This document shows, in pieces, positions 3,356 through 23,299 of a DNA stretch of 64,000 nt. Under the pieces are notes generated by a model. The model was not told the DNA's origin, searched no databases, and saw nothing but the letters and a program-made list of their open reading frames with translations. Within the stretch, counting starts at the first letter, position 1. Each line of letters opens with the position of its first letter. The position numbers and the translations under genes were made by a program. Origin of the DNA: Agromyces sp. SYSU T00194 (GTDB taxonomy: Bacteria > Actinomycetota > Actinomycetes > Actinomycetales > Microbacteriaceae); NCBI RefSeq assembly GCF_040496035.1, contig NZ_JBEPJZ010000001.1, positions 372,001-436,000 of the forward strand, written 5' to 3'.

Positions 3356-4852
3356 TCATCCGAGGATCCAGGACCACGTGTCGCGCGTGTACTGCTTCAC
3401 CTCGGTCGAGGGCCCGATCGCGGGTGGGAACCGGTCGCGCCACTCGTAGGGCCGGGTGGCGTCGATGATCATGCGCGAGTTCGTGCCCTTGCGATCGGGA
3501 TGGATCGCGGGGTCGAGGTGTCCGCTCAGCGCCCCGGTGAGGATGATCGTGTCGCGCTCCGGATCCGCCCGCGTCGAGACCGCCCAGATCACCTCGTGCA
3601 GGTCGGTGATGTCGATGTCGTCGTCGACCACCACCACGATGCGACCGAGGTAGTTGGCCTGGCGCACCTGCGCCGCGACCGTGCCGACCTGCCGCGAGTG
3701 CCCCTGGTACTTCTGGGAGATCGCGATGACGTTGAAGAGCCGGCAGCCGCCGACGCTGTGCGTCCAGGCCGCGGTCACGCCGGGGATCCCCGCGGCCGTG
3801 ATCTCGCGCTTGAGATTGGCACTGCGGCCGTACTGCTGGAACCGCTGGGCCTCGTAGGGCGGCTTCTCGGGCGGGCAGCCGAGGATGATCGGGTTGTTGC
3901 GGTAGTAGACCGCACTCACCTCGAACACCGGCTCGGGTCGCGCGGTCGAGGCGTAGTACCCCGTCCACTCGCCGAACGGCCCTTCGATGCGCTCCTTGTC
4001 GTGGCGGAGGAACCCCTCGATCGCGATCTCGGCGTCGGCGGGGATCGGCAGGCCCGTGAACCGGCCGGTTATGGTCGGGATCGGGCTGCCCTGCACACCT
4101 CCGACCCACTCGAGCTCGTTCACCCCGTTCGGGATCTCGAGGCCGCTCGCCATGAACTGCAGCGGATCGAGCCCGGCGACGATCACGGCGGGCATGTCTT
4201 CGCCGTTGTCGAAGTAGCCGTCGCGGTGGAGGCGGCCGTGCTTGCCGGGCGAGATGTACAGCCCCGTGGTGCGCTCGTCGTGCACCTGCACGCGGTACGC
4301 GCCCATGTTCACGATGCCGTCGTCGCGGCCGCGCGTGATGATGCCGCAGCCGGTGCCGATGTACGGGCCGCCGTCCTCCGGGTGCCAGAGCGGGGTGGGG
4401 AACTTCCACAGGTCGATGTCGTCGCCGGTCATCACGTTCTCGGTGATCGGGCCCTCCGCCACCTCCTCGGTCGGCAGCGGCACGGCCTCGTCGAGGTGCC
4501 GGCCCCACGCGTCGCAGAGCGCGAACGTGCCGATGTCGGCGGGGAGCCCGAGCGTCGCCGCGAGTCGCGCGCGGTTGCCGAGCGAGTTCACCAGCACCCG
4601 CCACCCCGGCTCGTAGCCCGGGATGCGGTCGAACAGCACCGCAGGCGAGTCCTCGGTGTGGTGCAGCATCTCCGAGACGTGGCCGATGCTCGCCTCGGCG
4701 TCGACGCCCTCCACCACGCGCAGCTCGCCGAGCCGATCCATCTCCGCGAGCCACCGGCGCAGCCCGGTCGGCGCGTCGCCGCGGTCGTCGAAGGGCACCG
4801 CCTCCGCGTCACCGCGTCCGGGCATCGAATGGGTCGTCAGGGTGTCGGTCAC
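3356..4852 (-). CDS. UbiD-family prenyl-FMN-dependent decarboxylase
   Basis: 498 aa, the normal size of UbiD enzymes. The family performs reversible decarboxylation of aromatic, heteroaromatic or alpha,beta-unsaturated acids with prenylated FMN. Recognisable segments are LRRWLAEMDRLGELRVVEG, NMGAYRVQVHDERTTGLYISPGKHG split over the cofactor site, FGEWTGYYA (the E-x-x-G-Y region) and VVVVDDDIDITDLHEVIWAV near residue 420. GTG 4852 follows a GAGGAGG ribosome site. UbiX, which makes the cofactor, is encoded 6 kb away in the same island. The adjacent importer genes suggest that an imported carboxylic acid, or its metabolite, is decarboxylated. It is not typical ubiquinone UbiD, because actinobacteria use menaquinone. 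Substrate unknown. Confidence 0.88.
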   Translation of the reverse strand: MTDTLTTHSMPGRGDAEAVPFDDRGDAPTGLRRWLAEMDRLGELRVVEGVDAEASIGHVSEMLHHTEDSPAVLFDRIPGYEPGWRVLVNSLGNRARLAATLGLPADIGTFALCDAWGRHLDEAVPLPTEEVAEGPITENVMTGDDIDLWKFPTPLWHPEDGGPYIGTGCGIITRGRDDGIVNMGAYRVQVHDERTTGLYISPGKHGRLHRDGYFDNGEDMPAVIVAGLDPLQFMASGLEIPNGVNELEWVGGVQGSPIPTITGRFTGLPIPADAEIAIEGFLRHDKERIEGPFGEWTGYYASTARPEPVFEVSAVYYRNNPIILGCPPEKPPYEAQRFQQYGRSANLKREITAAGIPGVTAAWTHSVGGCRLFNVIAISQKYQGHSRQVGTVAAQVRQANYLGRIVVVVDDDIDITDLHEVIWAVSTRADPERDTIILTGALSGHLDPAIHPDRKGTNSRMIIDATRPYEWRDRFPPAIGPSTEVKQYTRDTWSWILG

Positions 4853-4931
4853 GAGTCCTCCTCGATCGTGCTGATGCTGATGCTGATGCGGCCGGGACGG
4901 CGGGGCGGGCGGACGCCCACGCCTCCCGGGG

Positions 4932-5765
4932 TCATTCGAACGCCCCGCGACCGGGTTGCCACGGCGTGAGCTTCTGCTGCGCCCACGCCGCGAGTCCCTG
5001 GATCGCGACGGCGATGATCATGATGATGAAGATGGGTACGAACATCTGCGCGGTGAGGTACTCGATCGCGAAGAGCTCGATCATGCCGCCCACGCCGACC
5101 AGCGTCGACGTGATCTCCGCCACGATCACGCCCGACCACGCCTCCGCGAACGCCTGGCGGCCACCGGCCACCATGAACGGCGAGGCGGCGGGCAGGACGA
5201 TGCCGCGGATGATCTGCCGCTCGTTCGCCGTGTAGGCGACGCCGGCGTCGATGAGCGCCTTGTCGACCGCCCGGACGCCGGCCATGGTGTTGATGATCAC
5301 CGGCCAGACCGCGGAGAGGACGACGTACGCGTACCGGAACTGCCAGTCGAAGCCGAGCACGATGATCATGAGCGGCACGAGTGCCACGTGCGGCAGGGAG
5401 TACAGGAACGTCACGTACGGGTCGAGTGCGAATGCCACCGGCTTCCACCGGCCCATCGCGATGCCGATCGGCAGGCCGATGGCGAGTGCCGTGGCGAGGC
5501 CCGCGACGAGCAGCAGCAAGGAGGTGAGCAGCGGCCCCCAGACGACGCCGGTGACGAACAACTGGTCCCACGCCGCCACGAAGATCTCCGACGGCGGCGC
5601 GGTGAGCGCCCGGTTGATGTCCTTGGCGGTGAACTCCCAGAGCAGGAGCACGAACACGAGCATGCCGACCCGGATGCTCCACTGCCCGACGGGCGTGCTC
5701 GTGAAGCGGTTCTTGCGCGACGCACGGCGCAGGTGCGCCTGCGCGGCCTCGGTCTGGGCGCTCAT
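4932..5765 (-). CDS. ABC transporter permease, SsuC/TauC type (second of two)
   Basis: 277 aa with about six membrane segments, beginning WSIRVGMLVFVLLLWEF, and the binding-protein-dependent permease fold. The cytoplasmic loop that docks on the ATPase (AGVAYTANERQIIRGIVLPAASPFMVAGGRQA, given here as two parts around residue 190) fits the EAA motif of the nitrate/sulfonate/taurine permeases. ATG 5765 overlaps the stop of the preceding permease by 4 bp. With its neighbours it makes an importer with a heterodimeric channel. The gap to UbiD (4853-4931) has no gene and carries a short CTGATG triplet repeat (4871-4888). Confidence 0.88.
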   Translation of the reverse strand: MSAQTEAAQAHLRRASRKNRFTSTPVGQWSIRVGMLVFVLLLWEFTAKDINRALTAPPSEIFVAAWDQLFVTGVVWGPLLTSLLLLVAGLATALAIGLPIGIAMGRWKPVAFALDPYVTFLYSLPHVALVPLMIIVLGFDWQFRYAYVVLSAVWPVIINTMAGVRAVDKALIDAGVAYTANERQIIRGIVLPAASPFMVAGGRQAFAEAWSGVIVAEITSTLVGVGGMIELFAIEYLTAQMFVPIFIIMIIAVAIQGLAAWAQQKLTPWQPGRGAFE

Positions 5766-6628
5766 TGGCGCACCCCCTTGATCCGGGTCAGCCACGATCG
5801 GCGATGTGCATGGTTCCACGGCTCGGTCAACCGGACGTTGAGCCGGGCCATGAACTCCTGGATCACGACGGCGATGAGGCCGAGCAGCACGATCGCCACG
5901 AACATCGCGTCGATCTGGAAGTACTTGGCGTACAGCGTGATCAGGTTGCCGATGCCGCCCGCCGAGGTCGCGACCTCCGCGAGGACGACGCCGGTGAGCC
6001 CCTGCCCGAGACCGAGCCGGAACCCGCTGAAGACGTAGGGCAGGCTCGACCGCAGCATGATGCTCCGGTAGACCTTGAACGGCGACGCGCGGAACGCGCG
6101 GCCCACGTCGAGCAGTCCCCGCGGCACCTCCTTTCCGCCGAGGTAGGTGTTCAGCAGGATCGGGAACACCGCACCGAGGAAGACGATGCCCACCCGCATC
6201 TCGAAGCTGATGCCCAGCCAGAGCACGAGCACCGGGATGAGCGTGATGCGCGGCGTGGAGTAGAGCGCGTAGACGTAGGGCGCCAGCGCGATCTCGACGA
6301 CCTTGCTGAACGACATCAGCAGTCCGAGCGGCACGCCGACCACCACGGAGAGCGCCATGCCCGCGAACAGGCCGCGGAGCGTCTCGCCGAGCGCCGGCAG
6401 GATGTCGGGGACGAAGTTCTCGACCGCCGCCTGGGCGATCGCCGACGGGCTCGAGATGACCAGCGGCATGTCGCGCCCGAAGTACTCCCAGACCGAGAGG
6501 AACAGCAGCAGCGAGAGCGCGCGGATCGTCCAGGGGCTCCGGAGGACGCGCTGCACGCGCGAGGTGACGGGCTCGTCGTCGGGGATGAGCACCGCCTTCG
6601 TGCGCGCCGCGTCGCGGACGTCGGTCAC
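5762..6628 (-). CDS. ABC transporter permease, SsuC/TauC type (first of two)
   Basis: 288 aa starting at GTG 6628, which overlaps the ATPase stop by 4 bp (GTGA). It has five to six hydrophobic segments (for example ALSLLLFLSVWEYFGRD) and the EAA-type loop around DVGRAFRASPFKVYRSIML. It is homologous to the permease downstream, so the pair probably forms a heterodimer. Membrane channel of the importer encoded by 4932-8434. Confidence 0.88.
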   Translation of the reverse strand: MTDVRDAARTKAVLIPDDEPVTSRVQRVLRSPWTIRALSLLLFLSVWEYFGRDMPLVISSPSAIAQAAVENFVPDILPALGETLRGLFAGMALSVVVGVPLGLLMSFSKVVEIALAPYVYALYSTPRITLIPVLVLWLGISFEMRVGIVFLGAVFPILLNTYLGGKEVPRGLLDVGRAFRASPFKVYRSIMLRSSLPYVFSGFRLGLGQGLTGVVLAEVATSAGGIGNLITLYAKYFQIDAMFVAIVLLGLIAVVIQEFMARLNVRLTEPWNHAHRRSWLTRIKGVRQ

Positions 6629-7392
6629 AGCTTCGCACCCACCTGCATCTGCGACTGGAGCAGGTTCCAGCACTCGTCGCGCAGCTGGCCGTACTGCTCG
6701 GTGCCGCGCCAGTGCCCGTCCTTGCGGGGCTTGTCGATGGCGACCGGGAGGTCGGCGATCACGCGCCCGGGGTCGACGCCCATCACCACGATCCGGTCGG
6801 AGAGGTAGATCGCCTCGTCGATCGAGTGCGTGACGAACAGCACGGACAGCCCGCGGTCGGCGACGATGTCGAGCAGGAGTCCCTGCAACTGCTCGCGGGT
6901 GAGCGCGTCGAGCGCACCGAACGGCTCGTCCATGAGGAGGAGCTTGGGCTCGATGGCGAGCGCCCGGGCGAGACCGACGCGCTGCTGCTGCCCGCCCGAG
7001 AGCTGCGTCGGGAAGTGGTCCTTGCGACTGCCGAGACCGACCAGGTCGAGGTACTCGGCTGCCCGCTCGAGGCGTTCCTTCTTCCCGACGCCCTGCACCT
7101 CCAGGCCGTAGGCGGCGTTCTGGAGCGCGGTCTTCCAGGGGAAGAGGTTGAAGTTCTGGAACACGATGGCCTTGTCGCGCGAGGGACCCTCGCTGACCCG
7201 ACCGTCCACCTGCACCTCGCCACCGGACTGCCGGAGCAGTCCGGTGACGATGCGCAGTGCCGTCGTCTTCCCGCAGCCGCTCGGACCCAGGAGTGATACG
7301 AATTCCCCGGCCCCGACCTCGAGGTTGAAGTTCGCCAGGATCGGCGGCTTCTCGGGGTCGTAGCTCTTCGAGAGATTGACGACGCTCAGCAT
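6625..7392 (-). CDS. ABC transporter ATPase, SsuB/TauB/NrtD type
   Basis: 255 aa. Walker A GPSGCGKTT (about residue 42), Q-loop in FQNFNLFPW, signature LSGGQQQRVGLARA, Walker B LLLMDEPFGALD and switch His in LFVTHSIDEA are all present. Family level: nitrate/sulfonate/bicarbonate importers. ATG 7392 is chosen because the first strand of the fold (LSVVNLSKSY) starts there and a GGAGAA ribosome site precedes it. It energises uptake of the solute bound by the lipoprotein encoded just upstream. Confidence 0.92.
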   Translation of the reverse strand: MLSVVNLSKSYDPEKPPILANFNLEVGAGEFVSLLGPSGCGKTTALRIVTGLLRQSGGEVQVDGRVSEGPSRDKAIVFQNFNLFPWKTALQNAAYGLEVQGVGKKERLERAAEYLDLVGLGSRKDHFPTQLSGGQQQRVGLARALAIEPKLLLMDEPFGALDALTREQLQGLLLDIVADRGLSVLFVTHSIDEAIYLSDRIVVMGVDPGRVIADLPVAIDKPRKDGHWRGTEQYGQLRDECWNLLQSQMQVGAKL

Positions 7393-7414
7393 TGAGTGGT
7401 TCTCCGTTCCTGTC

Positions 7415-8434
7415 TCAGAACCGGCCGTTCTCGGCAAGGTAGTTGTCGACGAACGTGCTGTCGAGCCATTCGCTCTTGTCGGGAATGGTCGCGGCGTCGA
7501 AGTCCCCGGCGTCGATGGACGTCTGGATCCAGTTGTCGACGAGTTCGTCGTCCAGCCCGCCGTCGACGGCGAAGAAGTCGATGTCGACGAACTGGTCGTA
7601 CGCCGACTGGCGCAGCTCGTCGGAGCTCTCCGTGTCGACCTCGTAGGAGAGCTCGATGTACTCCTCCTTCTCGGTCGCCGCCCAGCGCAGCGCGTCGAGC
7701 ATCGCGTCCACCGCGCCCTGCGCGGCCTCGGGGTTGCCCTCGGTGAACTCCGTCGAGGCGATCAGGCCCGTCTGGATGTACGGACCGAGCGCCGGGCCGC
7801 AGTAGAGCAGCGCGGTGAACGGGCCCGCCTGGATCGCGGCCTCGGCGTTGACCAGGTGCGCGACGGTCGCCTGCACCTGCCCGGCCTGCAGCGCCGCGAC
7901 TCGGGCGCTCGTGCCGCCGATGACGACGTACTCGGGCGAGTCGATGTCGAAGCCCTCCGCCTCGAGTGCGAGCTTCATGATGGTGTCGCCCGCGGAGCCC
8001 GGCGTGTTCACGCCGATGAGCTGGCCCTCGAGGTCGTCGATCGAGTCGATGCCCTCCTCGGCCAGCACGACGTAGTCCGTCGCCTGGGCGTTCACGGCGA
8101 TCAACTCCACCGGCGCCTCGGTGTTCTGCACGGCGGTGATCATCGACGGAAGCGAACCGATGTACACGTCCGCTGCACCTGCGACGACCGCGCGGAGCGC
8201 CGCATCCTCCTCCTCGACGCTCTTGAAGTCGACGTCGAACCCTGCCTCTTCGAGGTTCATCTGCCACTTCGCGACGTCGACCGCACTGAAGTCGGGGGTG
8301 CCGATGCCGATGATCCTGATACTCAGGTCGGCTTCGGGGTCTCCGCCGTCTCCTCCTCCTCCGTCCCCGCCGGAGCACCCGGCCAGGACGATCGTCGCAG
8401 TCGCTGCCAACACTGCCAGCGTGTGCCTTCTCAT
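7415..8434 (-). CDS. Substrate-binding lipoprotein of an SsuA/TauA-like ABC importer
   Basis: 339 aa. Lipoprotein signal with lipobox VLAGC (Cys20), then a Gly/Asp-rich linker, then the NMT1/TauA-type periplasmic-binding fold (LSIRIIGIGTPDFSAVDVAK and further on NAQATDYVVLAEEGIDSIDD). It captures the solute at the outer face of the membrane. GGAGGAAGG lies 8 bp before ATG 8434. The 5' leader has a CCCCGG-CTTT-CCGGGG hairpin (8476-8491) and a -10-like TATGAT (minus strand, 8498-8503). First gene of a unit continuing through ATPase, two permeases and probably UbiD. Relatives carry sulfonates, nitrate, pyrimidine precursors or aromatic acids; which applies here cannot be read from the sequence. 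Confidence 0.88.
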   Translation of the reverse strand: MRRHTLAVLAATATIVLAGCSGGDGGGGDGGDPEADLSIRIIGIGTPDFSAVDVAKWQMNLEEAGFDVDFKSVEEEDAALRAVVAGAADVYIGSLPSMITAVQNTEAPVELIAVNAQATDYVVLAEEGIDSIDDLEGQLIGVNTPGSAGDTIMKLALEAEGFDIDSPEYVVIGGTSARVAALQAGQVQATVAHLVNAEAAIQAGPFTALLYCGPALGPYIQTGLIASTEFTEGNPEAAQGAVDAMLDALRWAATEKEEYIELSYEVDTESSDELRQSAYDQFVDIDFFAVDGGLDDELVDNWIQTSIDAGDFDAATIPDKSEWLDSTFVDNYLAENGRF

Positions 8435-8666: not shown

Positions 8667-9608
8667 ATGACGCCCTCGCAACAGACCGTGGCCGGCATGA
8701 AGCTGGGGCTGGTCCTGCCCAACAAGGGGGCGGGAGCCGGGCCCGAACTCCTGGACGCCGCCGCATCGGCGACCGCCGAGGTCGGCTGGAACTCGCTCTG
8801 GGTGACGGATCACCTGATGGTGCCGCGCGGCGAGGAGGAGGACGAGTACGGCACGATGCTGGAGGCGCTGACCACCATCGCCTGGGTCGGCGGCCGCCAC
8901 CCCGCACTCACCATCGGCACGTCCGTGGTGTCCCCCGCGATGCGCGACGCGCCCCTGCTCGCGAAGGAGCTCGCGACCATCGACGTGCTCCTCGGGGGCC
9001 GCCTGGTCGTGGGCGTCGGCGTGAGCGACAGCGGCGACCTCCAGGAGTACCGCAACATGGGCAAGGAGGATCGCTTCCGCACCCGAGGCGCCTACGTCGA
9101 CGAGACGATCCGACTCTGGCGCCACCTCTGGTCGGGCACTCGGGAGCCGTTCGAGGGCGAGTTCCACACGATCGACGACTTCACCTTCGCCCCGCTCCCC
9201 CTCGCCCGCGAGCAGCTGCCGGTGTGGTGCGGGGGCCGCAGCCGGCGGGCGCTGCGACGCACCGCCGAGCTCTGCGACGGCTACCACGCGGCCCAGACGT
9301 CCCCGGACGACCTGCGGGAGCGGATGCCGCAGCTGGAGGCCGCGTTCGCCCTGACGGGCCGCCCGATGCCGGTCGTCTCGACCCGCGCACGCGTGTACTT
9401 CGACCGCCCCCGTGGCGACGTGTACGCGATCACCGGCTCCCCGGAGGAGATGGCCGCCGATCTCGTCGCGTTCCGGGAGGCGGGCAACGACGAGCTGATC
9501 GTGGTGTTCGACGCCCATGAGCCCGATGCGCTCGCCGCCCAGATCCGGCGCTTCGCCGACGACGTGGTGGCACGGGCCGATGCGGCGATGCTGGACCGGG
9601 CCGGATGA
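8667..9608 (+). CDS. LLM-class (luciferase-like) flavin/F420-dependent oxidoreductase
   Basis: 313 aa. Luciferase-like TIM barrel: MKLGLVLPNKG strand, GWNSLWVTDHLMVP with the family D-H pair, SVVSPAMRDAPLLAKELATID, and GRLVVGVGVSDSGDL. Members use FMNH2 as monooxygenases or F420 as hydride-transfer enzymes; the cofactor is not decided by sequence alone, but the F420-reducing Fgd is encoded in the same island. ATG 8667 is set by a GGAGGAGCG ribosome site; upstream in-frame ATGs have none. The stop overlaps the next start (ATGA), so the two genes are translationally coupled. Substrate unknown. Confidence 0.82.
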   Translation: MTPSQQTVAGMKLGLVLPNKGAGAGPELLDAAASATAEVGWNSLWVTDHLMVPRGEEEDEYGTMLEALTTIAWVGGRHPALTIGTSVVSPAMRDAPLLAKELATIDVLLGGRLVVGVGVSDSGDLQEYRNMGKEDRFRTRGAYVDETIRLWRHLWSGTREPFEGEFHTIDDFTFAPLPLAREQLPVWCGGRSRRALRRTAELCDGYHAAQTSPDDLRERMPQLEAAFALTGRPMPVVSTRARVYFDRPRGDVYAITGSPEEMAADLVAFREAGNDELIVVFDAHEPDALAAQIRRFADDVVARADAAMLDRAG

Positions 9609-10894
9609 CGCCTCCCTCACCCGAGCGTGCGCTCGCCGACTTCGCGGCGACGCCCGCCGCACTGCCGCCCGCCGTGCGCGCCAGGGCGGAGGACCTCCTG
9701 ATCGACGCACTCGCCTGCGCCGTCGCAGGGCGGCACGCGCCCGGGCGCGACGGGTTCGACGCCGCCGTCCGCAGCCTGACGGGTGCGGGCGACGGCCTCG
9801 TGGTGGGCGACCGGCGGGCGGCGCCGGCGGGCGCGGCCATGCTCGACGCGTGGCAGGCGACGGCGCTCACGATGTGCGACGTCTACCGCCCGAGGCTCTG
9901 CCACGTCACGCCGCCCGTGCTCGGCGCCGTGCTCGCCGCCGCGGGGGACGCGACGCCGATGCGCGAGGTGGTCTCGGCATTCGCGATCGGTGCAGAGGTC
10001 ACCGTGCGACTGTGCGACGCCCTGCCCGCGGAGGCCTTCGACGGCCGCCGATGGCACGCGCCCGGGGTCGTCGGTCCGTACGGCGCGGCCGCCGCGGCCG
10101 GGGCGCTCCTCGGGCTCGACCCCGAGGCCATGACCCAGGCGTTCGGCGGTGCGGGCCTGCACTCCGGCGGATCCTTCGCGACCCTCGGCAGCCCCGGGGT
10201 CAAGCTGACCCAGGCGCGCGCGTCGGCCGCCGGCCTGACCGCTGCCGAGCTCGCCCGTGCCGGCCACGGCGGCGGCGCGCACGCGCTCACCGCCCCGGCC
10301 GGCGGACTCTACGCGGCGTTCGGCTCGGGAACCGCCGCCGCCGATCCCCGCGACCGGCTCGGCGAGCACTGGTCGCTCGACCGCCTCGCACTGCGACGGT
10401 GGCCCGCGTCGAGCTCGCTGCAGTCGCTCATCGAGGCCGCGACCGGCGCGTCCGACGCGAGCGCGCACCCCCGCCTGGAGGTCGAGCTGCCGGAGCAGGG
10501 CCACGCCCTCTGCGCCGAGATGGGCTGGGACGACTCGCTGTCGGCGATGCAGTCGGCGAGGTGGATCGCCGCCGTGTCCTGGCTCGACCGGTCGTTCTGG
10601 GTCGAGCAGACCTCGTCGGCCCGACGCGACGACGAGCGGGTCGCCGCCCTCGCCCGCACCGTCGAGGTACGACTCGACCCCGACCTCCCCCAGGGCGGCG
10701 TGCGCCTGCGCTCGGCCGGGAAGGTCGTGGCGGAGATCGACGTCCCGCTGGGCGCCCCGCAACGTCCGCTCCGGCGCGAGGACGTGCGCGGCAAGCTCGA
10801 CCGCGCCGCCGGCCCGGACGCCGCGGCGGGCATCGTCGCAGCGGTCACGGGCGACGGCGACGTCGGCGCGCTCGCGGCGCTGCTCGCCGGCTGA
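9605..10894 (+). CDS. MmgE/PrpD-family protein (2-methylcitrate dehydratase-like)
   Basis: 429 aa. All-helical N-terminal domain with the family pattern (LIDALACAVAGRHAPG, about residues 32-47; GVVGPYGAAAAAGALLGLDPEAM, about 158-180) and a smaller C-terminal domain. Relatives dehydrate 2-methylcitrate or related hydroxy-tricarboxylic acids, or act on unknown hydroxy acids (iminodisuccinate epimerase also has this fold). No prpC or prpB homologue lies nearby, so a methylcitrate cycle role is unlikely; it more likely acts on an intermediate of the island's pathway. Translationally coupled to the LLM gene. Confidence 0.78.
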   Translation: MTPPSPERALADFAATPAALPPAVRARAEDLLIDALACAVAGRHAPGRDGFDAAVRSLTGAGDGLVVGDRRAAPAGAAMLDAWQATALTMCDVYRPRLCHVTPPVLGAVLAAAGDATPMREVVSAFAIGAEVTVRLCDALPAEAFDGRRWHAPGVVGPYGAAAAAGALLGLDPEAMTQAFGGAGLHSGGSFATLGSPGVKLTQARASAAGLTAAELARAGHGGGAHALTAPAGGLYAAFGSGTAAADPRDRLGEHWSLDRLALRRWPASSSLQSLIEAATGASDASAHPRLEVELPEQGHALCAEMGWDDSLSAMQSARWIAAVSWLDRSFWVEQTSSARRDDERVAALARTVEVRLDPDLPQGGVRLRSAGKVVAEIDVPLGAPQRPLRREDVRGKLDRAAGPDAAAGIVAAVTGDGDVGALAALLAG

Positions 10895-10939: not shown

Positions 10940-11551
10940 TCAGGCCGGCATCCGGCCCTCGACGACCACCCGGCCGCCCGCGCGCACGAGGCGCCCGTCC
11001 CAGCGCACGGTGGCCTCCGAGTGGAGGCCGAACTGGTCGAGGGTGCGGGTGACGAGGTGGTCGACCACGTCCTCGACCGACTCCGGGGCGTTGTAGAAGG
11101 CGGGCACGGGCGGCATGATGCACACCCCGAGGCGGGCGAGCTTGAGCATGTTCTCGAGGTGGATCGCGCTGAGCGGCGCCTCGCGCACCATGAGCACGAG
11201 CGTCCGCCGCTCCTTCAGCACCACGTCGGCCGCGCGGCCCACGAGGTCGTCCGCGAGCCCGGAGGCGATCGACGCGAGGGTCTTCATGGAGCAGGGCGCC
11301 ACGACCATGCCCTCGGTGGCGAACGACCCGCTGGAGACGACTGCGCTCTGCTCGGAGTGGCCGTGCGCGACATCGGCCAGTGCCCGGACCTCCGCGACCG
11401 AGTAGCCGGTCTCGTGCTCGATGGTCTTGGCGCCCCACTTCGAGATGATGAGGTGCCGCTCGACGTCGAACTCCGCGAGCCGTTCCAGCATGCGGATGCC
11501 GAACACGGCCCCCGTGGCCCCGGTGATCGCGACGACGATGCGGCGGGTCAT
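10940..11551 (-). CDS. ubiX: UbiX-like flavin prenyltransferase
   Basis: 203 aa. It joins a dimethylallyl group to FMN to make prenyl-FMN, the cofactor of UbiD decarboxylases. Visible are RRIVVAITGATGAVFGIRM (nucleotide-binding start), SSGSFATEGMVVAPCSMKTLASIASG (spans about residues 84-109 and includes the family's Ser and Pro-Cys-Ser region), and VLMVREAPLSAIHLENML, the Arg-Glu-x-Pro-Leu motif. ATG 11551 overlaps the stop of the split-barrel gene (ATGA). Its presence beside a UbiD gene argues that the decarboxylase here is a functional prenyl-FMN enzyme. Confidence 0.93.
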   Translation of the reverse strand: MTRRIVVAITGATGAVFGIRMLERLAEFDVERHLIISKWGAKTIEHETGYSVAEVRALADVAHGHSEQSAVVSSGSFATEGMVVAPCSMKTLASIASGLADDLVGRAADVVLKERRTLVLMVREAPLSAIHLENMLKLARLGVCIMPPVPAFYNAPESVEDVVDHLVTRTLDQFGLHSEATVRWDGRLVRAGGRVVVEGRMPA

Positions 11552-13033: not shown

Positions 13034-13041
13034 GCGGCCGT

Positions 13042-15817: not shown

Positions 15818-15834
15818 GCGCGCTCCTTCCTCTC

Positions 15835-16587
15835 CTAGCGTCCTTCGAATGCGGGCGGTCGACGTTCCCGGAACGCGGCCCGGCCCTCGGCCCGGTCGCG
15901 CGTCTCGGCCAGCTCCGCCCAGAGCGCGCGCTCGAGCGCGAACCCGTCTGCGTGCTCCGACGCCGCGCGCGCCGCGCGCTTGGCGGCGCGCAACGACAGC
16001 GGCGCCGCCTCGGCCACGCGCCCGGCGAGCGCACGCGCCCGCTCCCCGAGCTCCTCGGGCTCGACGACCTCGCTCACCAGGCCCCAGCGGCCTGCGGCCT
16101 CGGCGTCCAGCGGCAGGCCCGTGTACAGCAGGTGCGCCGCGATCGCCGCGGGCAGCGCCCCGAACACCCGCTGGGTGCCGCCGCTGCCCGGGAGGGACCC
16201 GATGCGCAGTTCCGGCAGCAGGAACGTCGCCGCGCTGCTGCACAGTCGCAGGTCCGCGGCGAGCGCGAGCTCGAAGCCGCCGCCGGCCGCGGGCCCGTTC
16301 ACCGCGGCGACGACCGGACGGGTGCACGTGGCGACGGGTTCCGCGAGGGGCCGCGTCGCGAGTTCCGGGGGCACCGGGCCGCCGCGCAGGTCCGTGCCGG
16401 CGCAGAACGCGGTGCCGGCGCCGGTGAGGACCACCACGCGCACGGCGTCGTCCGCGTCCACCGCGGCGAACGCCTCGACGAGGGCGAGCCGCGCGTGGGC
16501 GTCGAGCGCGTTGCGGCGCTCGGGCCGGTTCAGGGTCACGGTCGCGACCGCGCCGTCCACCTCGAGGAGGATCGGATCGGCGCTCAT
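15835..16587 (-). CDS. Enoyl-CoA hydratase/isomerase family protein
   Basis: 250 aa crotonase fold. The oxyanion-hole segments are GTAFCAGTDLRGG (about residues 56-68) and [19 protein letters not shown] (about 95-113). The first catalytic Glu of classical hydratases would lie after the second Gly segment; PELRIGSLPGSGGTQR retains one Glu (of PEL) and the Gly-rich loop, so hydratase activity is plausible but isomerase or other crotonase chemistry is not excluded. ATG 16587 overlaps the CoA-transferase stop. Expected to hydrate an unsaturated acyl-CoA to the 3-hydroxy compound cleaved by the downstream aldolase-like complex. Confidence 0.88.
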   Translation of the reverse strand: MSADPILLEVDGAVATVTLNRPERRNALDAHARLALVEAFAAVDADDAVRVVVLTGAGTAFCAGTDLRGGPVPPELATRPLAEPVATCTRPVVAAVNGPAAGGGFELALAADLRLCSSAATFLLPELRIGSLPGSGGTQRVFGALPAAIAAHLLYTGLPLDAEAAGRWGLVSEVVEPEELGERARALAGRVAEAAPLSLRAAKRAARAASEHADGFALERALWAELAETRDRAEGRAAFRERRPPAFEGR

Positions 16588-17798
16588 GCGAGCACGCCGT
16601 CGTCGACGAGCCGGTCGTAGTCCTCGCGCGACATGCCGAGTTCCGTGCTGAGCACGTCCCACGTGTGCTCGCCGAGCAGCGGCGGCCGGGTCACGGGCGC
16701 GCGCTCGACGCCCACCTTCCTGATCGGGGTGCGGGAGATCGGCATCCGGCCGATCACGGGGTGCTCGACGTCCTCCCAGTACGCCCGCTCCCGGAGCAGG
16801 GGGTCCTCGACGATGTCCCGCGAGTCCTTCACCAGGGCGTGCGGCACGCCGTGCTCGGCGAGCCGGGCGAGCACGTCCTCCATCGCACGGGCGCCCACGG
16901 TCGCGTCGAGCAGGGCACCGAGCTCGTCCTCGTGGCGCGCGCGGCCCGCGGCATCCGCGAACCTGGCGTCGTCGACGGCGTCGAGCTCGAGCGCCGCGCA
17001 CAGCGCCCGCCAGGCCGCCTCGTCGGGGCACGAGACGGCGACCCAGCGGTCGTCGGCCGTGCGGTACGCGTCGTGCGGCACGCGACCGGGCCAGCGGTTG
17101 CCCGAGACGTGCGGTTCGTGGCCCATGCTGGACTCGACGATCGCGGGGCCGACGACGTTCACGGTCGACTCGAGTTGCGACAGCTCGATCCACTGCCCCT
17201 CGCCGGTGACCCGTCGGTGGCGCACGGCCGCGAGCACGGCGACGAGTGCGTGGCCCGGGTTCGGCAGGTGGTCGGGGTAGTGGGTGCCGGTGCCGACCGG
17301 CGCGCGACCCTCGATGCCCGACAGGCCCACGATGCCGGCGAGCGCGGAGATCGTCGAGCCGAATCCGATGTAGTTGGCGTGCGGTCCGTCGGCGCCCTGC
17401 ATGGGCATCGTGAGGTACAGCAGCGACGGGTTGGCGGCCGCCAGCTCCGCGTAGGTCATGCCCCAGCGCTCCATGATGCCGGGGCGGAAGTTGCTCGCGA
17501 CGAGATCGACGCGGCCGGCGAGCTCGCGCGCGACGTCGCGCCCGGCGGCCGTCGACATGTCGATGGCGACGCTCTGCTTGCCCGGATTGCGCGACGCGAA
17601 GTAGCCCGAGCCCTCGATCCCCTCCCGTCCGGGCCGGAACGGGGGCGAGAGCCGCAGGTTGTCGGGGTGGGTGCTCGACTCCACCCGGTAGACGTCCGCA
17701 CCGAGCTCCGCCAGCGTCTTGGTCACCAGGGCGCCCGCCCCGATCCAGCAGAAGTCGAGGATCTTGAAACCCTCCAACGGTCGCATCGCACGCGTCAT
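16584..17798 (-). CDS. Class III (CaiB/BaiF) CoA-transferase, Asp-bearing subunit
   Basis: 404 aa. Family III fold with LEGFKILDFCWIGAG start, RVESSTHPDNLR, RNPGKQSVAIDM and the active-site region THYPDHLPNPGHALVAVLAAV from about residue 172. Asp176 lies where the family forms its aspartyl-CoA anhydride. This YPD...NP.H variant is seen in two-subunit transferases such as BbsEF. GGGGAG precedes ATG 17798, which overlaps the stop of the other CoA-transferase gene. Probably moves CoA to the imported acid from a donor such as succinyl-CoA; the partner acids are unknown. Confidence 0.9.
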   Translation of the reverse strand: MTRAMRPLEGFKILDFCWIGAGALVTKTLAELGADVYRVESSTHPDNLRLSPPFRPGREGIEGSGYFASRNPGKQSVAIDMSTAAGRDVARELAGRVDLVASNFRPGIMERWGMTYAELAAANPSLLYLTMPMQGADGPHANYIGFGSTISALAGIVGLSGIEGRAPVGTGTHYPDHLPNPGHALVAVLAAVRHRRVTGEGQWIELSQLESTVNVVGPAIVESSMGHEPHVSGNRWPGRVPHDAYRTADDRWVAVSCPDEAAWRALCAALELDAVDDARFADAAGRARHEDELGALLDATVGARAMEDVLARLAEHGVPHALVKDSRDIVEDPLLRERAYWEDVEHPVIGRMPISRTPIRKVGVERAPVTRPPLLGEHTWDVLSTELGMSREDYDRLVDDGVLA

Positions 17799-18988
17799 CC
17801 GTCTGCTCCCCCCACTCGCACCAGCGGCGTCCGCCACGCCGCCGTCGGCTCCTCGACCACGGGCGCCGCGGGCCGGACCGGACTCCCGGACAGCCGGTAG
17901 GGCGGTCCGGGGAACACGAGCTCCCCGTCGGGTCCGGGCACGTGCACGAAGAACCTGCGGTGCAGCAACTGCGGGTTCTCCCGCAGGTCGGCCACCGTGC
18001 TCACGGGCGACAGCGCGATCATCCGCGACTGCGCCTCGCGATAGAGCTCGGCCTTGTCGTGCTGCGCCGCGAACGGCAGGAACACGGCCGCGAAGCCGTC
18101 GACGCCCGCGGGGCTCTGGCGGAAGGCGAAGTCGCCCCAGCGCTCCTCGCGCAGGTGCTCGGCGCCCGGGGCGCCCGCCTCGTTCAGCCAGTCGACGAGC
18201 GCGCGCCAGGCGCGGGCGGTGCCGAGCCGGCCCGCGACCATCGAGACGTGGCCGTCGCGGCACGGGTACACGCCGGTTCCCGCCTCGCGCGGCCGCTCGC
18301 CGAGGCGCTGCCGCACCGCCCCGGTCAGGGCGTAGCCCGGCGCGCTGTCCTCCAGCGCCTGCGCGATGCACTCCTGCGCCGACACGTCGTAGGTGCCGCC
18401 GTCGCCCCCGCGCTCCTTGTCGAGCACGCCGGCGAGCGCGGCGACCGCGCCGAAGATCGACGAACCGAGCCAGCTCTGGGCGCCGTGGGCCACCACCGGC
18501 CCCTCGTCCACGTACCCGCCGAGGTGGAGCAGGCCGCCGTCGGCCATGACCAGCAGGTCGTCGGACCGGCCCTCCGGCCCGCCGACGCCGAGTCCGCGGG
18601 GGCTCAGCACGACGTGCACCAGGTCGGCATCGCGCACCTCGGCCATGCCCGCCGTCCAGCGCGGGGCCCCGTCGGCACCCACCTCCTCGATGAGCACGTC
18701 GGCCTCGGGCGCGACCGCGCGCACCTGGGCGCGCAGCCGTTCGGGGTCGGCGAACACGGTGCGCCGCTTCCCGGCGTTCGTGAAGGCGTCGTAGGCCGCG
18801 AGCCAGTGGTCGCGCACGCCGGGATCGTCGGCGTCCGCCGCGATCTCCAGCCGGAGCACCTCCGCACCGAGGTCGGCGAGCAGCCGCGACGCGTACGCGC
18901 CCGGCTCGCCCGCGAGGTCGAGCACGCGCAGCCCGGCGAGGGCGCGTCCCGGCTCCGGTGACGGCACGGCGGCGGGTGCCCCGCTCAT
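17795..18988 (-). CDS. Class III (CaiB/BaiF) CoA-transferase, subunit without catalytic Asp
   Basis: 397 aa, homologous to the gene downstream (LAGLRVLDLAGEPGAYASRLLADLGAEVLRLE, read in two parts from residue 18). At the active-site position the sequence is HGAQSWLGSSIFGAV (from about 168) with no Asp. A catalytic/non-catalytic pair of adjacent CaiB/BaiF genes is the pattern of heteromeric transferases such as BbsE/BbsF, so this is probably the structural partner of the 16584-17798 product. ATG 18988 overlaps the aldehyde dehydrogenase stop by 4 bp. Confidence 0.85.
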   Translation of the reverse strand: MSGAPAAVPSPEPGRALAGLRVLDLAGEPGAYASRLLADLGAEVLRLEIAADADDPGVRDHWLAAYDAFTNAGKRRTVFADPERLRAQVRAVAPEADVLIEEVGADGAPRWTAGMAEVRDADLVHVVLSPRGLGVGGPEGRSDDLLVMADGGLLHLGGYVDEGPVVAHGAQSWLGSSIFGAVAALAGVLDKERGGDGGTYDVSAQECIAQALEDSAPGYALTGAVRQRLGERPREAGTGVYPCRDGHVSMVAGRLGTARAWRALVDWLNEAGAPGAEHLREERWGDFAFRQSPAGVDGFAAVFLPFAAQHDKAELYREAQSRMIALSPVSTVADLRENPQLLHRRFFVHVPGPDGELVFPGPPYRLSGSPVRPAAPVVEEPTAAWRTPLVRVGGADG

Positions 18989-20421
18989 CGTGCCGGCCGA
19001 TCGGTGTTCACGACCAGCGTGCGCAACTCGGTCATGTGCTCGATGGCGTAGCGGATGCCCTCGCGGCCGACGCCGGACTCCTTCATGCCGCCGTACGGCA
19101 TGTGGTCGACCCGGAACGTCGGCACGTCGTTGACGATGACCCCGCCCACGCGCAGTTCCTCGAACGCCTCCCAGATCGTGGGGAGGTCGTCGGTGAACAC
19201 GCCCGCCTGCAGGCCGTACGCGCTCGCGTTGACGGCGTCCCACGCCTCCTGCATCCGCTCGAAGGACTCGAGGGTCACGATCGGGGCGAAGGCCTCCTCG
19301 CGCGCGAGTCGCACGGTCGGCGGGACGTGCTCGAGCACGGCGGGGCGGACGTAGGCGCGATCGCGCGTGCCGCCCGTGAGCAGGTCGGCTCCCGAGGCGA
19401 CGGCCTCCTCGACGAGGCCGACCGCGCGCATCGCGGCGTCCTCCGAGATCATCGGCCCGAGGTCGACCCCGTCCTCGAGCGGGTCCCCGACCCGCAGGCC
19501 GCGCGCACCTTCCACGAGCCGTTCGCGCAGTTCGTCGATGCGCGAGGCGTGCACCAGCACCCGCTGCACGCTGATGCAGATCTGGCCGGCGTACTTGAAG
19601 CCGCCGACGAGCAGCCGCCCCATGACCCGGTCGAGGTCGGCGTCGGGGGCGACCACCACGGCGCCGTCGCCACCGAGCTCGAGGACCACGTGCTTGCTGC
19701 CGGCCCGCGCCCGCATGTCCCAGCCGACCCGTGCGGAGCCGGTGAACGACAGCAGCGCGAACCTCGGGTCGGTCACCATCGCATCGGCGACCGCGACGTC
19801 CATCGGCAGCACGCTCACCGCGCCCGCGGGCAGCCCGGCGTCGTCGATCACCTCGGCCAGCATCAGCAACGTGCCGGCGACCCGGGTGTCGGGCTTCAGC
19901 ACGATGCTGTCACCGGCCGCGATCGCGGGCGCGAGCTTGTGCGCCGACAGCGACAGCGGCACGTTGAACGGGCTGATGCCCGCGACGGGCCCGAGCGGCA
20001 TCCGCCGGGTGATCGCCCACTTCCCGCGCGCGCTCGGGATGACGTCGAGCGGGAGCACCTCGCCCTGGATCCGCACGGCCTCCTCGGCCGCATGCCGGAA
20101 CGCGAACACGGTGCGGTCGACCTCGACGAGCGAGTCGGCCAGGGGCTTCCCAGCCTCGCGCGCGAGCATCCGTCCGAACTCCTCGCGGCGGTCGCGCAGT
20201 CCGTCGGCGATGCGATGCAGCGCATCCGACCGCTCGTACGACGCCATGCGCCGCGTCTGCTCGAACGCGGCGACCGCCGCCGCCGTCGCCCGGTCGAGCT
20301 GCTCGGCGGTCGCGAGGTGCACCGCGCCGATCTCCGCGCCGCTGCCCGGCTCGCGGGAGACGACCGTCTGCTCGGACGTCTCCCACTCGCCGGCGAGGTA
20401 CACGGGGCGGGCCTGGGTCAC
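18985..20421 (-). CDS. NAD(P)-dependent aldehyde dehydrogenase
   Basis: 478 aa, the usual length. ALDH fold with the Asn of SPFNVP (153), cofactor loop FTGSARVG, general-base Glu248 in LELGGDG and nucleophile Cys282 in GQICISVQR. Oxidises an aldehyde to the acid. GTG 20421 overlaps the ThDP gene stop by 4 bp (GTGA). Its place between the ThDP enzyme and the CoA-transferases suggests that it oxidises an aldehyde released by the ThDP enzyme or by the aldolase. Closest in style to lactaldehyde/benzaldehyde-type dehydrogenases; substrate not readable. Confidence 0.92.
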   Translation of the reverse strand: MTQARPVYLAGEWETSEQTVVSREPGSGAEIGAVHLATAEQLDRATAAAVAAFEQTRRMASYERSDALHRIADGLRDRREEFGRMLAREAGKPLADSLVEVDRTVFAFRHAAEEAVRIQGEVLPLDVIPSARGKWAITRRMPLGPVAGISPFNVPLSLSAHKLAPAIAAGDSIVLKPDTRVAGTLLMLAEVIDDAGLPAGAVSVLPMDVAVADAMVTDPRFALLSFTGSARVGWDMRARAGSKHVVLELGGDGAVVVAPDADLDRVMGRLLVGGFKYAGQICISVQRVLVHASRIDELRERLVEGARGLRVGDPLEDGVDLGPMISEDAAMRAVGLVEEAVASGADLLTGGTRDRAYVRPAVLEHVPPTVRLAREEAFAPIVTLESFERMQEAWDAVNASAYGLQAGVFTDDLPTIWEAFEELRVGGVIVNDVPTFRVDHMPYGGMKESGVGREGIRYAIEHMTELRTLVVNTDRPAR

Positions 20422-22187
20422 TGCTGCTCCATCTGCCCGTGCGCGCCGTAGCTCTTCGACCAGGTGTCGGGGTATGCGCGGTCGAGGCCGCGGGTGAAGT
20501 AGGTCGGCACGTCGGGGTCGGTGTCGACGTCGACGACGAAGGGCCTGCCGCTGGCGAACGCCGCGTCGAAGGCGGCGGGGAGCTGGTCGGCGCTGGTCAC
20601 CTTGATGCCGTCGCCGCCGAAGGCGCGCGCCATGGCCACGAAGTCGGGGTTGTACGGCTCGCCGTCGGGCGTGCGGAAGAAGATCCAGGGGTGGTTGCGC
20701 CCGAACTGCTTCTCGGCGCCCTTCTTCTCGATGCCGAGTTCGTGGTTGTTGACGATGACCCAGACGCACGGCACGCCGTACTCCATGGCCGTGGCCAGCA
20801 CCTGCGGCCCCATGAGGAACGCGCCGTCGCCGGTGAGCGCCACCGGGATGATGTCGGGGTCGGCGACGGCGGCGCCGAGCGCGCCCTCGGTCGCCCAGCC
20901 CATCTCGGCCATGCCGGAGCTGATGTGCCAGTGCCCCGGCTCGTGGATGGTCATGTAGGGCTCGGCGTACTGGATGATGTCGCCGACGTCGATGTACGCG
21001 TGCGCACGGGGCTCGCGCGCCATGGCCTCTCCGAGCTCGTAGGCGAGTCGGCCCGGGTGGATGCGCTCGAAGTCGCCGGCGACGACCTCCTGCACCTCGA
21101 CCTCCCAGTCGCGCTTGAACCCGGCGATCGCCTCGCGCCACGGCGCGATGTCCATGCGCTCGTCGCCGAGCGCCTCGGCGAGGTCGTCGAGGAACGTGAC
21201 GCCGTCGCTGATCAGGCCGAGCTCGACCTCGTAGTTGCGGCCGACCTCGTCGGGGGCGACGTCGACCTGGATGAGCTTGGTCTTCGGGATGTCGTAGATC
21301 GCGCCCTTGCGCCAGTTGCCCGCGTTGTTGTCGGAGAACCGGGCACCGACGGCGATCAGGACGTCGGCGTCGCGGGTCGCCCGGGCCGCGGCGATCGTGC
21401 CCGATCGCCCGACCGTGCCGACCGAGAGCTCGTGGTCCTCCGACAGGAGCCCCTTCGCGGTGAGCGTCGTCGCCACCGGGATGCCGGTGCGGGCCGTGAA
21501 CGCCTCGATGTGGCTGGTCGGGTCGGCGCCGCGGGCGACGCCGCCGCCCACCAGCAGCACGGGGCGCTCCGCCTCCCGGACGAGCCGGGCGGCCTCGGCC
21601 ACGTCGTCGCGCGATGCGCGGTGGCCCGAGCGCACGGAGCGAGCGGCGGGCGGCACGATCTCGCCCTCGATCTGCGCCCACTGGATGTCGGTCGGGATCT
21701 GCACGAGCACCGGCCCGGGCCGGCCGCTGGTGGCCACGCGGAGCGCGTGGTTCAGGGTGTCGATGACGGTGTCGGGGCGGATGGTCAGCCAGGCGCCCTT
21801 CGTGATCGGGCGGAGGACGCTGATCGTGTCCTCGTTGCCGTGGTAGTACATCTCCTGCATGCCGGCCTTGCCGAAGAAGTGGGTGGCCGTGCCGCCGCAG
21901 ATCACGAGCAGCGGGATCGAGTCGTGCATGGCGCTGGCGATGCCGCCGACCGCGTTCATGATGCCCGGGCCCTTGGTCACGATCACGGGGGCCACGCGAC
22001 CAGTCTCGCGGAAGTAGATGTCGGCCTGGTGGACCGCGTGCGACTCGTGCTTGGCCTGCACGCCCCGGATCTCGGGGTGCTCGATCAGCCCGTCGAGGAT
22101 CGGCCAGATCGCACCTCCCGCGTAGCCGAAGTAGTGGGTGAATCCTGCTGCGGAGAACCAGTCCGCGATGGCATCTACGACACGCAT
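20418..22187 (-). CDS. Thiamine diphosphate enzyme, acetolactate synthase-like
   Basis: 589 aa with the three domains of the AHAS/decarboxylase family: PYR domain with the activating Glu48 in KHESHAVHQAD, central domain (GGGVARGADP, about 215), and PP domain with the ThDP motif LTGDGAFLMGPQ...VNNHELG (about 450-480). The AHAS-typical PVTK is ITKGAW here. The family includes acetolactate synthase, benzoylformate and oxalyl-CoA decarboxylases, sulfoacetaldehyde acetyltransferase and 2-hydroxyacyl-CoA lyase. No small AHAS subunit is nearby, so a catabolic lyase or decarboxylase feeding the next-door aldehyde dehydrogenase is more likely. AAGGA precedes ATG 22187. First gene of the CoA operon. 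Confidence 0.88.
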   Translation of the reverse strand: MRVVDAIADWFSAAGFTHYFGYAGGAIWPILDGLIEHPEIRGVQAKHESHAVHQADIYFRETGRVAPVIVTKGPGIMNAVGGIASAMHDSIPLLVICGGTATHFFGKAGMQEMYYHGNEDTISVLRPITKGAWLTIRPDTVIDTLNHALRVATSGRPGPVLVQIPTDIQWAQIEGEIVPPAARSVRSGHRASRDDVAEAARLVREAERPVLLVGGGVARGADPTSHIEAFTARTGIPVATTLTAKGLLSEDHELSVGTVGRSGTIAAARATRDADVLIAVGARFSDNNAGNWRKGAIYDIPKTKLIQVDVAPDEVGRNYEVELGLISDGVTFLDDLAEALGDERMDIAPWREAIAGFKRDWEVEVQEVVAGDFERIHPGRLAYELGEAMAREPRAHAYIDVGDIIQYAEPYMTIHEPGHWHISSGMAEMGWATEGALGAAVADPDIIPVALTGDGAFLMGPQVLATAMEYGVPCVWVIVNNHELGIEKKGAEKQFGRNHPWIFFRTPDGEPYNPDFVAMARAFGGDGIKVTSADQLPAAFDAAFASGRPFVVDVDTDPDVPTYFTRGLDRAYPDTWSKSYGAHGQMEQQ

Positions 22188-22227
22188 TTTCCTTCAGTGC
22201 CTCCCTTGGCTCCGAGTCTCGTCATTC

Positions 22228-22272
22228 ATCGTTTCAGCAACAAATCTTGCTGTCAAGTTGCAGTCTGCAACT
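22228..22272 (-). promoter_or_regulatory. Promoter with two TTGC/GCAA dyads before the CoA operon
   Basis: Minus strand: exact -35 consensus TTGACA (22251-22256) and, 17 bp on, a weak -10 AACGAT (22228-22233). Two inverted repeats bracket the -35: AGTTGCAG-T-CTGCAACT (22256-22272, perfect, 8-bp arms) and CAGCAA-N6-TTGCTG (22235-22252, in the spacer). The first lies inside the last codons of fgd. Both share the TTGCwG core, so a repressor could bind both, possibly the RpiR protein (inference). Confidence 0.5.
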
Positions 22273-23299
22273 CTCGCGTCGACTCCAGCGCACGCAGTCG
22301 CGGCGCGAGATCGCGCTCGAACAGGGCCAGGAACCGACGCTGGTCGGCGCCCGGCGCATGGAACACCAGATGGGTGAAGCCGGCGTCCACGTACTCGCCG
22401 ATGCGGCCCACCACCGCGTCGGGGTCCGCGCCGACGATCCAGCGGCGGGCGATCGCCTCGATCGGCTGCGCGTCGGCGACGCGCTCCATCTCGAGGGGGT
22501 CGGTGATGTCGTGCTTCTGCGCGGCACCGAGCGACAACGGCGACCAGAACCGGGTGTGCTCGAGCGCCGCCTCGGGGTCGGTGTCGTACGACAGCTTGAT
22601 CTCGATCATCCGCTCGACCGCGCGCGGGTCGCGTCCGGCGGCAGCCGCGCCGGCATCCACCGCCGGGATCAGCTGCTCGGCGTACAGCTCGCGGCCCTTG
22701 CCGGACGTGCAGATGAACCCGTCGGCGACGCGCCCGGCGTACCGCGCCACCACCGGGCCACCCGCCGCGATGTACACGTCGATCGGGACGTCGGGGCGGT
22801 CGTACACGGATGCCCCGTGCAGCGAGTAGTACTCCCCGTCGAAGTCCACGCGCGCATCCGACCAGAGCGCCCGGATGAGCCGGACGGCCTCGCGGAGCCG
22901 GGCGAACCGCTCGCGGAACTCGGGCCAGGGCTGGTCGCCCGCGCCGGCGTGACCGGGCGCGATCTCGTTCAGCGCCTCCCCGGTGCCGAATCCGGCGAAG
23001 ACGCGCCCGGGCGCGAGCATGCCCACCGTCGCGAACGCCTGCGCCACCACGGCGGGGTTGTACCGGAACGTGGGCGTCATGACCGACGTGCCGATGCGCA
23101 CCCGCTCGGTGCGCACGGCGACCGCGGCGAGCACCGCGAGCGCGAACGGCGCGTGGCCGCCGTGGTGCCGCCACGGCTGGAAGTGGTCGCTGATCGCGAC
23201 CGACTGCATGCCCCGCCGCTCGGCCTCGACGGCGAGGTCGACGAGCTCCGGCGGGTCGAACTGCTCCGCGGACGCCTTGTAACCGAGGGTGAGCTGCAT
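22253..23299 (-). CDS. fgd: F420-dependent glucose-6-phosphate dehydrogenase
   Basis: 348 aa. Oxidises glucose-6-phosphate to 6-phosphogluconolactone while reducing coenzyme F420, the main F420H2 source in mycobacteria. It tracks mycobacterial Fgd1 through its length: [10 protein letters not shown] start, [17 protein letters not shown] with Asp38 and His39 of the F420 site, [58 protein letters not shown], and [12 protein letters not shown] near the end. The start at ATG 23299 is fixed by the N-terminal match although no ribosome site precedes it; the promoter predicts a leaderless message. Placed directly before the CoA operon. Confidence 0.92.

Follow-up and report, generated by a model that had tools for sequence, protein, structure and literature searches.

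A conserved gene island in Agromyces combines UbiD-family, class III CoA-transferase and predicted Ltp2-type aldolase genes

Results

Gene content of the island

A 64,000-nucleotide stretch of the genome of Agromyces sp. SYSU T00194 (contig NZ_JBEPJZ010000001.1, positions 372,001 to 436,000; here called the window) contains, at approximately 3356-23299, an island encoding 19 proteins. A reading made from the sequence alone (the original prediction) had described these genes as a linked catabolic set. Open reading frames and profile scans with Pfam and NCBIfam recovered every gene type named in that prediction close to its expected position, and revealed one that it had not mentioned, an MFS_3 transporter gene that begins with GTG and overlaps the DUF35 stop by 4 bp. 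The features of the island are as follows.

3356-4852, minus strand: UbiD-family decarboxylase (Pfam UbiD; TIGR00148, 274 bits, cut-off 245; best Protein Data Bank (PDB) match 7pda, 308 bits)
4932-8434, minus strand: ABC importer, NMT1/THI5-type (Pfam and NCBIfam matches; orthologues 71-85% in Protaetiibacter), comprising permeases (4932 to about 5760; 5762-6628), ATPase (6625-7392) and NMT1/THI5-type binding protein (7415-8434)
8667-9608, plus strand: LLM-class flavin/F420 oxidoreductase (Pfam Bac_luciferase; TIGR03619, under the cut-off)
9605-10894, plus strand: MmgE/PrpD-family protein (Pfam; best PDB match, at 73 bits, an IRG1-type protein of Bacillus, with cis-aconitate decarboxylase next)
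10940-11551, minus strand: UbiX flavin prenyltransferase (TIGR00421, 253 bits, cut-off 109)
11548-12033, minus strand: putative PhdC-like prenylated-FMN (prFMN) maturase (161 amino acids, without a Pfam match)
12140-13033, plus strand: RpiR-family regulator (Pfam HTH_6 and SIS; ATG start and stop verified)
13042-14274, minus strand: MFS_3 transporter, last gene of the operon headed by the thiamine diphosphate (ThDP) enzyme gene (Pfam MFS_3)
14271-14675, minus strand: DUF35 partner, ChsH2-type zinc ribbon and OB fold (Pfam zf-ChsH2 and OB_ChsH2_C)
14672-15817, minus strand: predicted Ltp2-type retro-aldolase, thiolase fold (aligned with TcLtp2, 6ok1; both catalytic Tyr)
15835-16587, minus strand: crotonase-family enoyl-CoA hydratase (ECH; Pfam ECH_1)
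16584-17798, minus strand: CaiB1, class III CoA-transferase, active-type (best PDB match 9fn0_B, 296 bits; Asp present)
17795-18988, minus strand: CaiB2, class III CoA-transferase, inactive-type partner (Pfam CoA_transf_3; Asp absent)
18985-20421, minus strand: aldehyde dehydrogenase (ALDH; Pfam Aldedh)
20418-22187, minus strand: ThDP-dependent enzyme, acetolactate-synthase superfamily (three Pfam TPP domains; TIGR00118, 356 bits, cut-off 538)
22231-22256, no strand: 26-bp palindrome, core 22237-22250, 43 nt upstream of the ThDP start
22253-23299, minus strand: F420-dependent glucose-6-phosphate dehydrogenase (FGD), second genome copy (TIGR03554, 565-566 bits, cut-off 420)
23300-23313, no strand: GCAA-N6-TTGC palindrome abutting the fgd start codon (exact core match)

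The operon reads downward from 22187 in the order ThDP, ALDH, CaiB2, CaiB1, ECH, aldolase, DUF35 and MFS_3. Overlaps of 4 bp occur five times within it and also at LLM/PrpD, maturase/UbiX and ATPase/permease, making eight, or nine with DUF35/MFS. The GC content is even across the window (0.68-0.76).

Linkage across genera

The island is not confined to Agromyces. Protaetiibacter mangrovi (genome G228) holds all 19 proteins in a single block of about 20 kb, in which FGD adjoins UbiX and not ThDP, and a genome from another order that is probably Jiangella asiatica (G815; the Jiangella genome below) has 14 of the 19 on one contig. The Jiangella row runs UbiX, maturase, PrpD, LLM, UbiD, DUF35, aldolase, ECH, CaiB1, RpiR, ALDH, ThDP and MFS, so that UbiD stands between LLM and DUF35; CaiB2 and a second UbiD lie farther along the same contig. 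Because the complete set occupies one block of another genus and 14 members share a contig in a third, the linkage is more than chance, and we regard the island as confirmed to be a real, conserved linked unit. Homologues are thus not scattered and unlinked in relatives, and the single linked catabolic unit of the original prediction is upheld in this respect. Three neighbour sets, namely maturase-UbiX, LLM-PrpD and ECH-aldolase-DUF35, are kept in all three islands.

A fourth cluster was found in the Microbacteriaceae metagenome-assembled genome 339R (G130), of whose 138-kb contig 38 kb was fetched. Nine of the 19 proteins are represented (ECH, CaiB1, CaiB2, ALDH, ThDP and a divergent four-gene importer), together with a distant thiolase-like gene. 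With this cluster counted, ThDP and ALDH are adjacent in 4/4. No Ltp2-type aldolase and no DUF35 gene was found in the 38 kb; an ordinary thiolase-type gene lies about 3 kb off. Mutator-family and Tn3-type transposase genes (L018 10496-13467 and L009 2097-3389) flank the 339R cluster. The end of the Jiangella island (L026 1951-2931) and the position beside ThDP in 339R (L018 4612-5772) encode binding-protein-like products that are 51% identical to each other and bear a weak resemblance to a region of Aromatoleum aromaticum EbN1 plasmid 2 encoding a TAXI-type binding protein. The Jiangella contig also carries, near CaiB2 (L027 8304-19576), the second UbiD, another LLM gene and a pair of TctA/TctC transporter gene sets, and in Protaetiibacter a PrpF-family gene (L016 10512-11588) is located some 8 kb past ThDP.

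Individual components of the island are rare. CaiB2 was detected in 5 of 249 genomes of the family at 1e-30, own genome included, and at 1e-50 in the own genome alone among 396 drawn from the phylum; among the four other positive genomes of the family, G235 and G032 have a different cluster with related CoA genes. The ThDP enzyme was similarly restricted to the own genome in the phylum draw (1/396 at 1e-120), and to the own and Jiangella genomes among 296 drawn from the class at 1e-150. UbiD was present in 1 of 60 genomes of the window's own genus at 1e-60, only at the island, and in 1 of 22 of the Jiangella order at 1e-120. The ThDP and UbiD homologue lists have four contigs of at least 10 kb in common, matched by length (22263, 23910, 60358 and 525371), where a perturbation null gave a mean of 0.07 and a largest value of 2 in 5000; the maturase and ThDP lists share a contig of 18806, likewise matched by length.

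We rejected a plasmid location for the island, since ThDP has no plasmid match at 1e-100 and the eight plasmid UbiD records at 1e-60 are all below 60% identity. No empty insertion site was shown: the left flank protein was matched in 4 of 16 genomes including the own, none close, and the right flank protein in 13 of the 16, again counting the own, where the neighbours were not looked at.

A probable prFMN module and a second FGD

The window UbiD belongs to the UbiD family by its TIGR00148 score, and the stretches bearing the R and E..E motifs are kept in 5/5 compared UbiDs. It lies under the curated cut-offs for VdcC (259 of 650 bits) and the phenylphosphate carboxylase beta subunit (280 of 469 bits). 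UbiX, well above its own cut-off, is present in the same island, as expected of a unit in which UbiX would supply UbiD.

The product of 11548-12033, described originally as a split-barrel-like protein and counted among F420 enzymes, is best read as a distant PhdC-like prFMN maturase. Its top structural match is PhdC, at about 20% identity, and its Glu50 aligns with the PhdC active-site Glu47 and is invariant in 8/8 maturase rows. The C-terminal E146-R-W148 recalls the ExW of PhdC (Glu136, Trp138), a structural equivalence that falls outside the alignments; the Trp is present in 8/8 rows. The homologue search gave at least six proteins, the Protaetiibacter and Jiangella copies not being among them. 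Since the former split-barrel protein reads as a PhdC-like maturase, it probably forms one cofactor module with UbiX and UbiD.

The F420 component of the original prediction is thereby narrowed to an assigned FGD and a possible LLM enzyme. FGD exceeds its cut-off in 19 of 20 selected genomes, 17 of which have one copy and the Jiangella genome none; only the own genome (G000) and P. mangrovi have two, one of them island-borne in each case. The cofD product exceeded its cut-off in 10/10 genomes tested. The additional FGD suggests a step that requires F420H2, for which LLM is a candidate, its best PDB rows being F420 enzymes at about 53 bits.

The ThDP enzyme and ALDH

The ThDP enzyme falls short of the acetolactate synthase cut-off, and its highest PDB score is to BbmA (260 bits), followed by acetolactate synthases (224) and cyclohexane-1,2-dione hydrolase (136). 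Glu48 and F284-S285-D286-N287 are invariant in 34/34 sequences. Acetohydroxyacid synthases carry Arg at the position equivalent to N287, so the Asn would argue against that activity. Fold comparison does not discriminate between acetolactate synthase, HKA synthase, glyoxylate carboligase and the dione hydrolase, which lie within about 2 Z of each other. ALDH reached no NCBIfam equivalog cut-off among the 25 rows listed.

A CoA module without a dehydrogenase

CaiB1 is closest in the PDB to a benzylsuccinate CoA-transferase subunit (9fn0_B), the next match scoring 168 bits. In 16 selected rows from the fetched loci, an Asp column that we take to be catalytic is occupied in 8/8 CaiB1-type and 0/8 CaiB2-type proteins. 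The paired CoA-transferases of the original prediction are probably a single active/inactive heteromer resembling BbsEF.

The thiolase-fold protein aligns with TcLtp2, whose catalytic pair is given as Tyr294 and Tyr344 in the available text of PMC12329534. Both residues are present in the window, Protaetiibacter and Jiangella aldolases; across the module rows the first Tyr is conserved in 6/6 and the second in 5/6, with Phe in Variovorax. These residues led us to reject a thiolase, and by homology 14672-15817 is an Ltp2-type retro-aldolase. The oxyanion-hole His of the YDHF motif, replacement of which cost TcLtp2 14-fold according to the same portion of that source, is Asn in the window (YDNF). 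The predicted CoA-transferase, hydratase and Ltp2/DUF35-type aldolase are supported as a module. No acyl-CoA or hydroxyacyl-CoA dehydrogenase (including BbsG- and BbsCD-like) had a Pfam match among the island genes scanned; a hydroxyacyl-CoA dehydrogenase would not be needed, because cleavage would be retro-aldol.

A conserved palindrome upstream of ThDP

The window has two copies of the pattern GCAA-N6-TTGC, picked after inspection of these sequences, where 0.18 would be expected; one lies ahead of ThDP and the other directly adjoins the start of fgd. In all four clusters the 26-bp palindrome stands 30-43 nt ahead of the ThDP start codon. A matrix built on four foreign sites gave the window ThDP site a score of 36.1, where the best of 10 window shuffles reached 15.8; the Jiangella ThDP site, outside the matrix, scored 32.8. 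Genome-wide, the core pattern occurs 6, 4, 14 and 16 times in the own, Protaetiibacter, 339R and Jiangella genomes, and a reversed control 13, 11, 30 and 45 times.

We rejected a common operator for all island promoters, since only the ThDP site exceeds the shuffles: the site between maturase and RpiR (9.4) falls within them, and four intergenic regions compared in pairs showed no signal over shuffles. RpiR is the natural candidate to bind the palindrome, yet the 38 kb fetched of the 339R locus, which carries the palindrome, showed no homologue of RpiR.

Outside the island, tandem glycine riboswitch aptamers (window 2430-2615) lie upstream of a serine dehydratase gene (935-2377), and genes for a non-specific DNA/RNA endonuclease and a RelA/SpoT-domain protein lie beyond fgd (window 23361-25185).

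Discussion

Our findings establish the genes, their families and key residues, their co-conservation and a conserved palindrome before ThDP. The individual reactions, their order and the action of all modules on one compound are inferred from gene families, gene order and the 339R cluster. The original prediction is partly supported: its linked catabolic unit stands, a UbiD decarboxylation is retained as a predicted step, and the branched or aromatic carboxylic acid given there is one possible substrate class.

We favor a single catabolic unit, to which the following chain as a whole is fitted tentatively, at slightly under an even chance. The ABC importer would take up an organic acid. UbiX would form reduced prFMN, which the maturase would oxidise to the active form, and UbiD with this cofactor would decarboxylate an aromatic or alpha,beta-unsaturated acid. 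LLM and the MmgE/PrpD protein would process the decarboxylated product, with F420H2 from the extra FGD. The ThDP enzyme would then break a carbon-carbon bond, in either a 2-oxo acid or a cyclic 1,2-dione or acyloin, and so yield an aldehyde, which ALDH would convert to a (di)carboxylate. This product would be activated by the heteromeric CoA-transferase, in which CaiB1 is the predicted active and CaiB2 the inactive subunit, hydrated at a double bond by the crotonase, and cleaved as a beta-hydroxyacyl-CoA by the aldolase and DUF35 to an acyl-CoA and a carbonyl compound. The placing of ThDP and ALDH ahead of the CoA-transferase draws on 339R, which retains the set from ThDP to ECH without an Ltp2-type aldolase. 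Hence aldehyde oxidation probably precedes CoA activation, and its original placement at the end of the route becomes less likely.

Several observations weigh against this scheme. The Jiangella genome has neither the window-type importer nor a true FGD. The 339R segment keeps ThDP-ALDH-CaiB2-CaiB1-ECH without UbiD, LLM or PrpD, and a Variovorax CoA module has no annotated UbiD or ALDH, so the modules may be separable. LLM, a possible F420 enzyme, scores 153 bits against a TIGR03619 cut-off of 167; the Glu of the maturase ExW is present in 5/8 rows at best; the ThDP enzyme resembles acetolactate synthases more closely than the dione hydrolase; and the fgd site (12.0) falls within the shuffles.

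The same enzymes could act as one pathway in the reverse order, which we consider improbable but nevertheless a strong rival. The CoA-transferase, hydratase and Ltp2/DUF35 aldolase would begin the route, taking an itaconate- or benzylidenesuccinate-like acid and releasing an aldehyde or 2-oxo acid together with succinyl- or acetyl-CoA that might feed the CoA-transferase; the carbonyl product would be processed by ThDP/ALDH and lastly by UbiD. This order would give ALDH its aldehyde from the retro-aldol step, and it fits the kinship of CaiB1 to benzylsuccinate CoA-transferase, for which the available text of PMC10818641 names succinyl-CoA as donor, as well as the TctABC transporter genes on the Jiangella contig and the PrpF gene near the Protaetiibacter island. 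It sits poorly with ThDP and ALDH in 339R, where the fetched segment has a thiolase-type gene in the vicinity and no Ltp2-type aldolase or DUF35; 339R is a single case, and for that reason the rival retains its strength. Alternatively, two or more independent pathways may simply be co-located, a UbiD/UbiX/maturase/importer unit and a ThDP-to-aldolase unit serving different substrates. The units are transcribed separately in the window, 339R has only one of them, Variovorax has the CoA module among other neighbours, and EbN1 has an importer-UbiD neighbourhood with ThDP and ALDH not annotated in 29 kb. Against mere co-location stand the full or near-full set in three genera despite rearrangement, the Jiangella UbiD lodged between LLM and DUF35, and the four metagenome contigs common to ThDP and UbiD homologues (matched by length); we likewise rate it improbable, yet a strong rival.

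That the island serves a known route, whether anaerobic-type phthalate, phenazine-carboxylate, benzylsuccinate or steroid side-chain degradation, is very improbable, although each shares one module with it. EbN1 plasmid 2 has a binding protein, ATPase, permease and UbiD in a row, this UbiD being 49.7% identical to that of the window, with ThDP, aldolase and DUF35 not annotated in the 29 kb shown. Its UbiX/UbiD/CoA-transferase region, which we take to be the phthalate region, contains, next to UbiX genes, UbiDs 25% identical to that of the window. The window UbiD matches phthaloyl-CoA decarboxylase structures at 63 bits, compared with 308 for 7pda. The stretch L024 8370-23159 of this plasmid holds two UbiX-UbiD sets, the importer-UbiD row and paired active-/inactive-type CoA-transferases. 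PhdABC of Mycolicibacterium fortuitum likewise groups UbiD, UbiX and a small flavin-barrel maturase, but the maturase is only distantly similar, the window UbiD is nearer to 7pda, and the window set is tied to CoA and ThDP genes. BbsEF/BbsAB of anaerobic toluene (benzylsuccinate) degradation provide paired class III CoA-transferase subunits, the closest solved relative, and the thiolase-fold protein with DUF35 gave weak matches to the BbsB/BbsA models; the toluene route requires BbsG and BbsCD (PMC10818641, available text), the island scan has neither, and a Tyr/Tyr aldolase takes the place of the thiolase. Membership of the Bbs pathway fails as tested. The steroid side-chain aldolase Ltp2-ChsH2 (DUF35) shares the thiolase fold, both catalytic Tyr and an overlapping DUF35 partner gene, and differs from an island with YDNF, a crotonase hydratase and no steroid-ring genes. 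Lastly, plasmid 3 of Variovorax sp. SRS16 (NZ_LR594668.1) has ECH, two CoA-transferases, the aldolase (64.5%) and DUF35 in a row with an MmgE/PrpD gene, but UbiD, UbiX and ALDH are not annotated in 29 kb and Phe replaces the second catalytic Tyr.

Literature searches for this combination turned up no described pathway, in keeping with the original prediction; the available text of PMC13101534 concerns a gene cluster for benzene that includes a class III CoA-transferase, and has UbiD in its reference list only. In its workings the island appears to resemble portions of the Phd, Bbs and Ltp2 systems, known modules in a new combination. A more far-reaching view, which we hold to be unlikely, is that it encodes an undescribed route without a classical ring-cleaving oxygenase. 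Such a route would begin with prFMN decarboxylation and F420H2-supported reduction, after which the ThDP enzyme would cleave a C-C bond, possibly in a ring, to give an aldehyde acid. It would close without a dehydrogenase, by CoA transfer, hydration and retro-aldol cleavage, thereby joining phenazine-carboxylate, benzylsuccinate and steroid side-chain parts with a new prFMN maturase clade.

A list of neighbouring genes has thus become a defined conserved set in named bacteria, Protaetiibacter mangrovi and probably Jiangella asiatica, so that its substrate can be searched for directly. The maturase would extend the recently described PhdC maturases by a distant clade, one that may prove useful because many UbiD enzymes produced in E. 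coli lack active cofactor (PMC13040415, available text). Finally, the island points to a dehydrogenase-free ending of a CoA pathway, in which retro-aldol cleavage would replace thiolysis and be tied to a heteromeric CoA-transferase.

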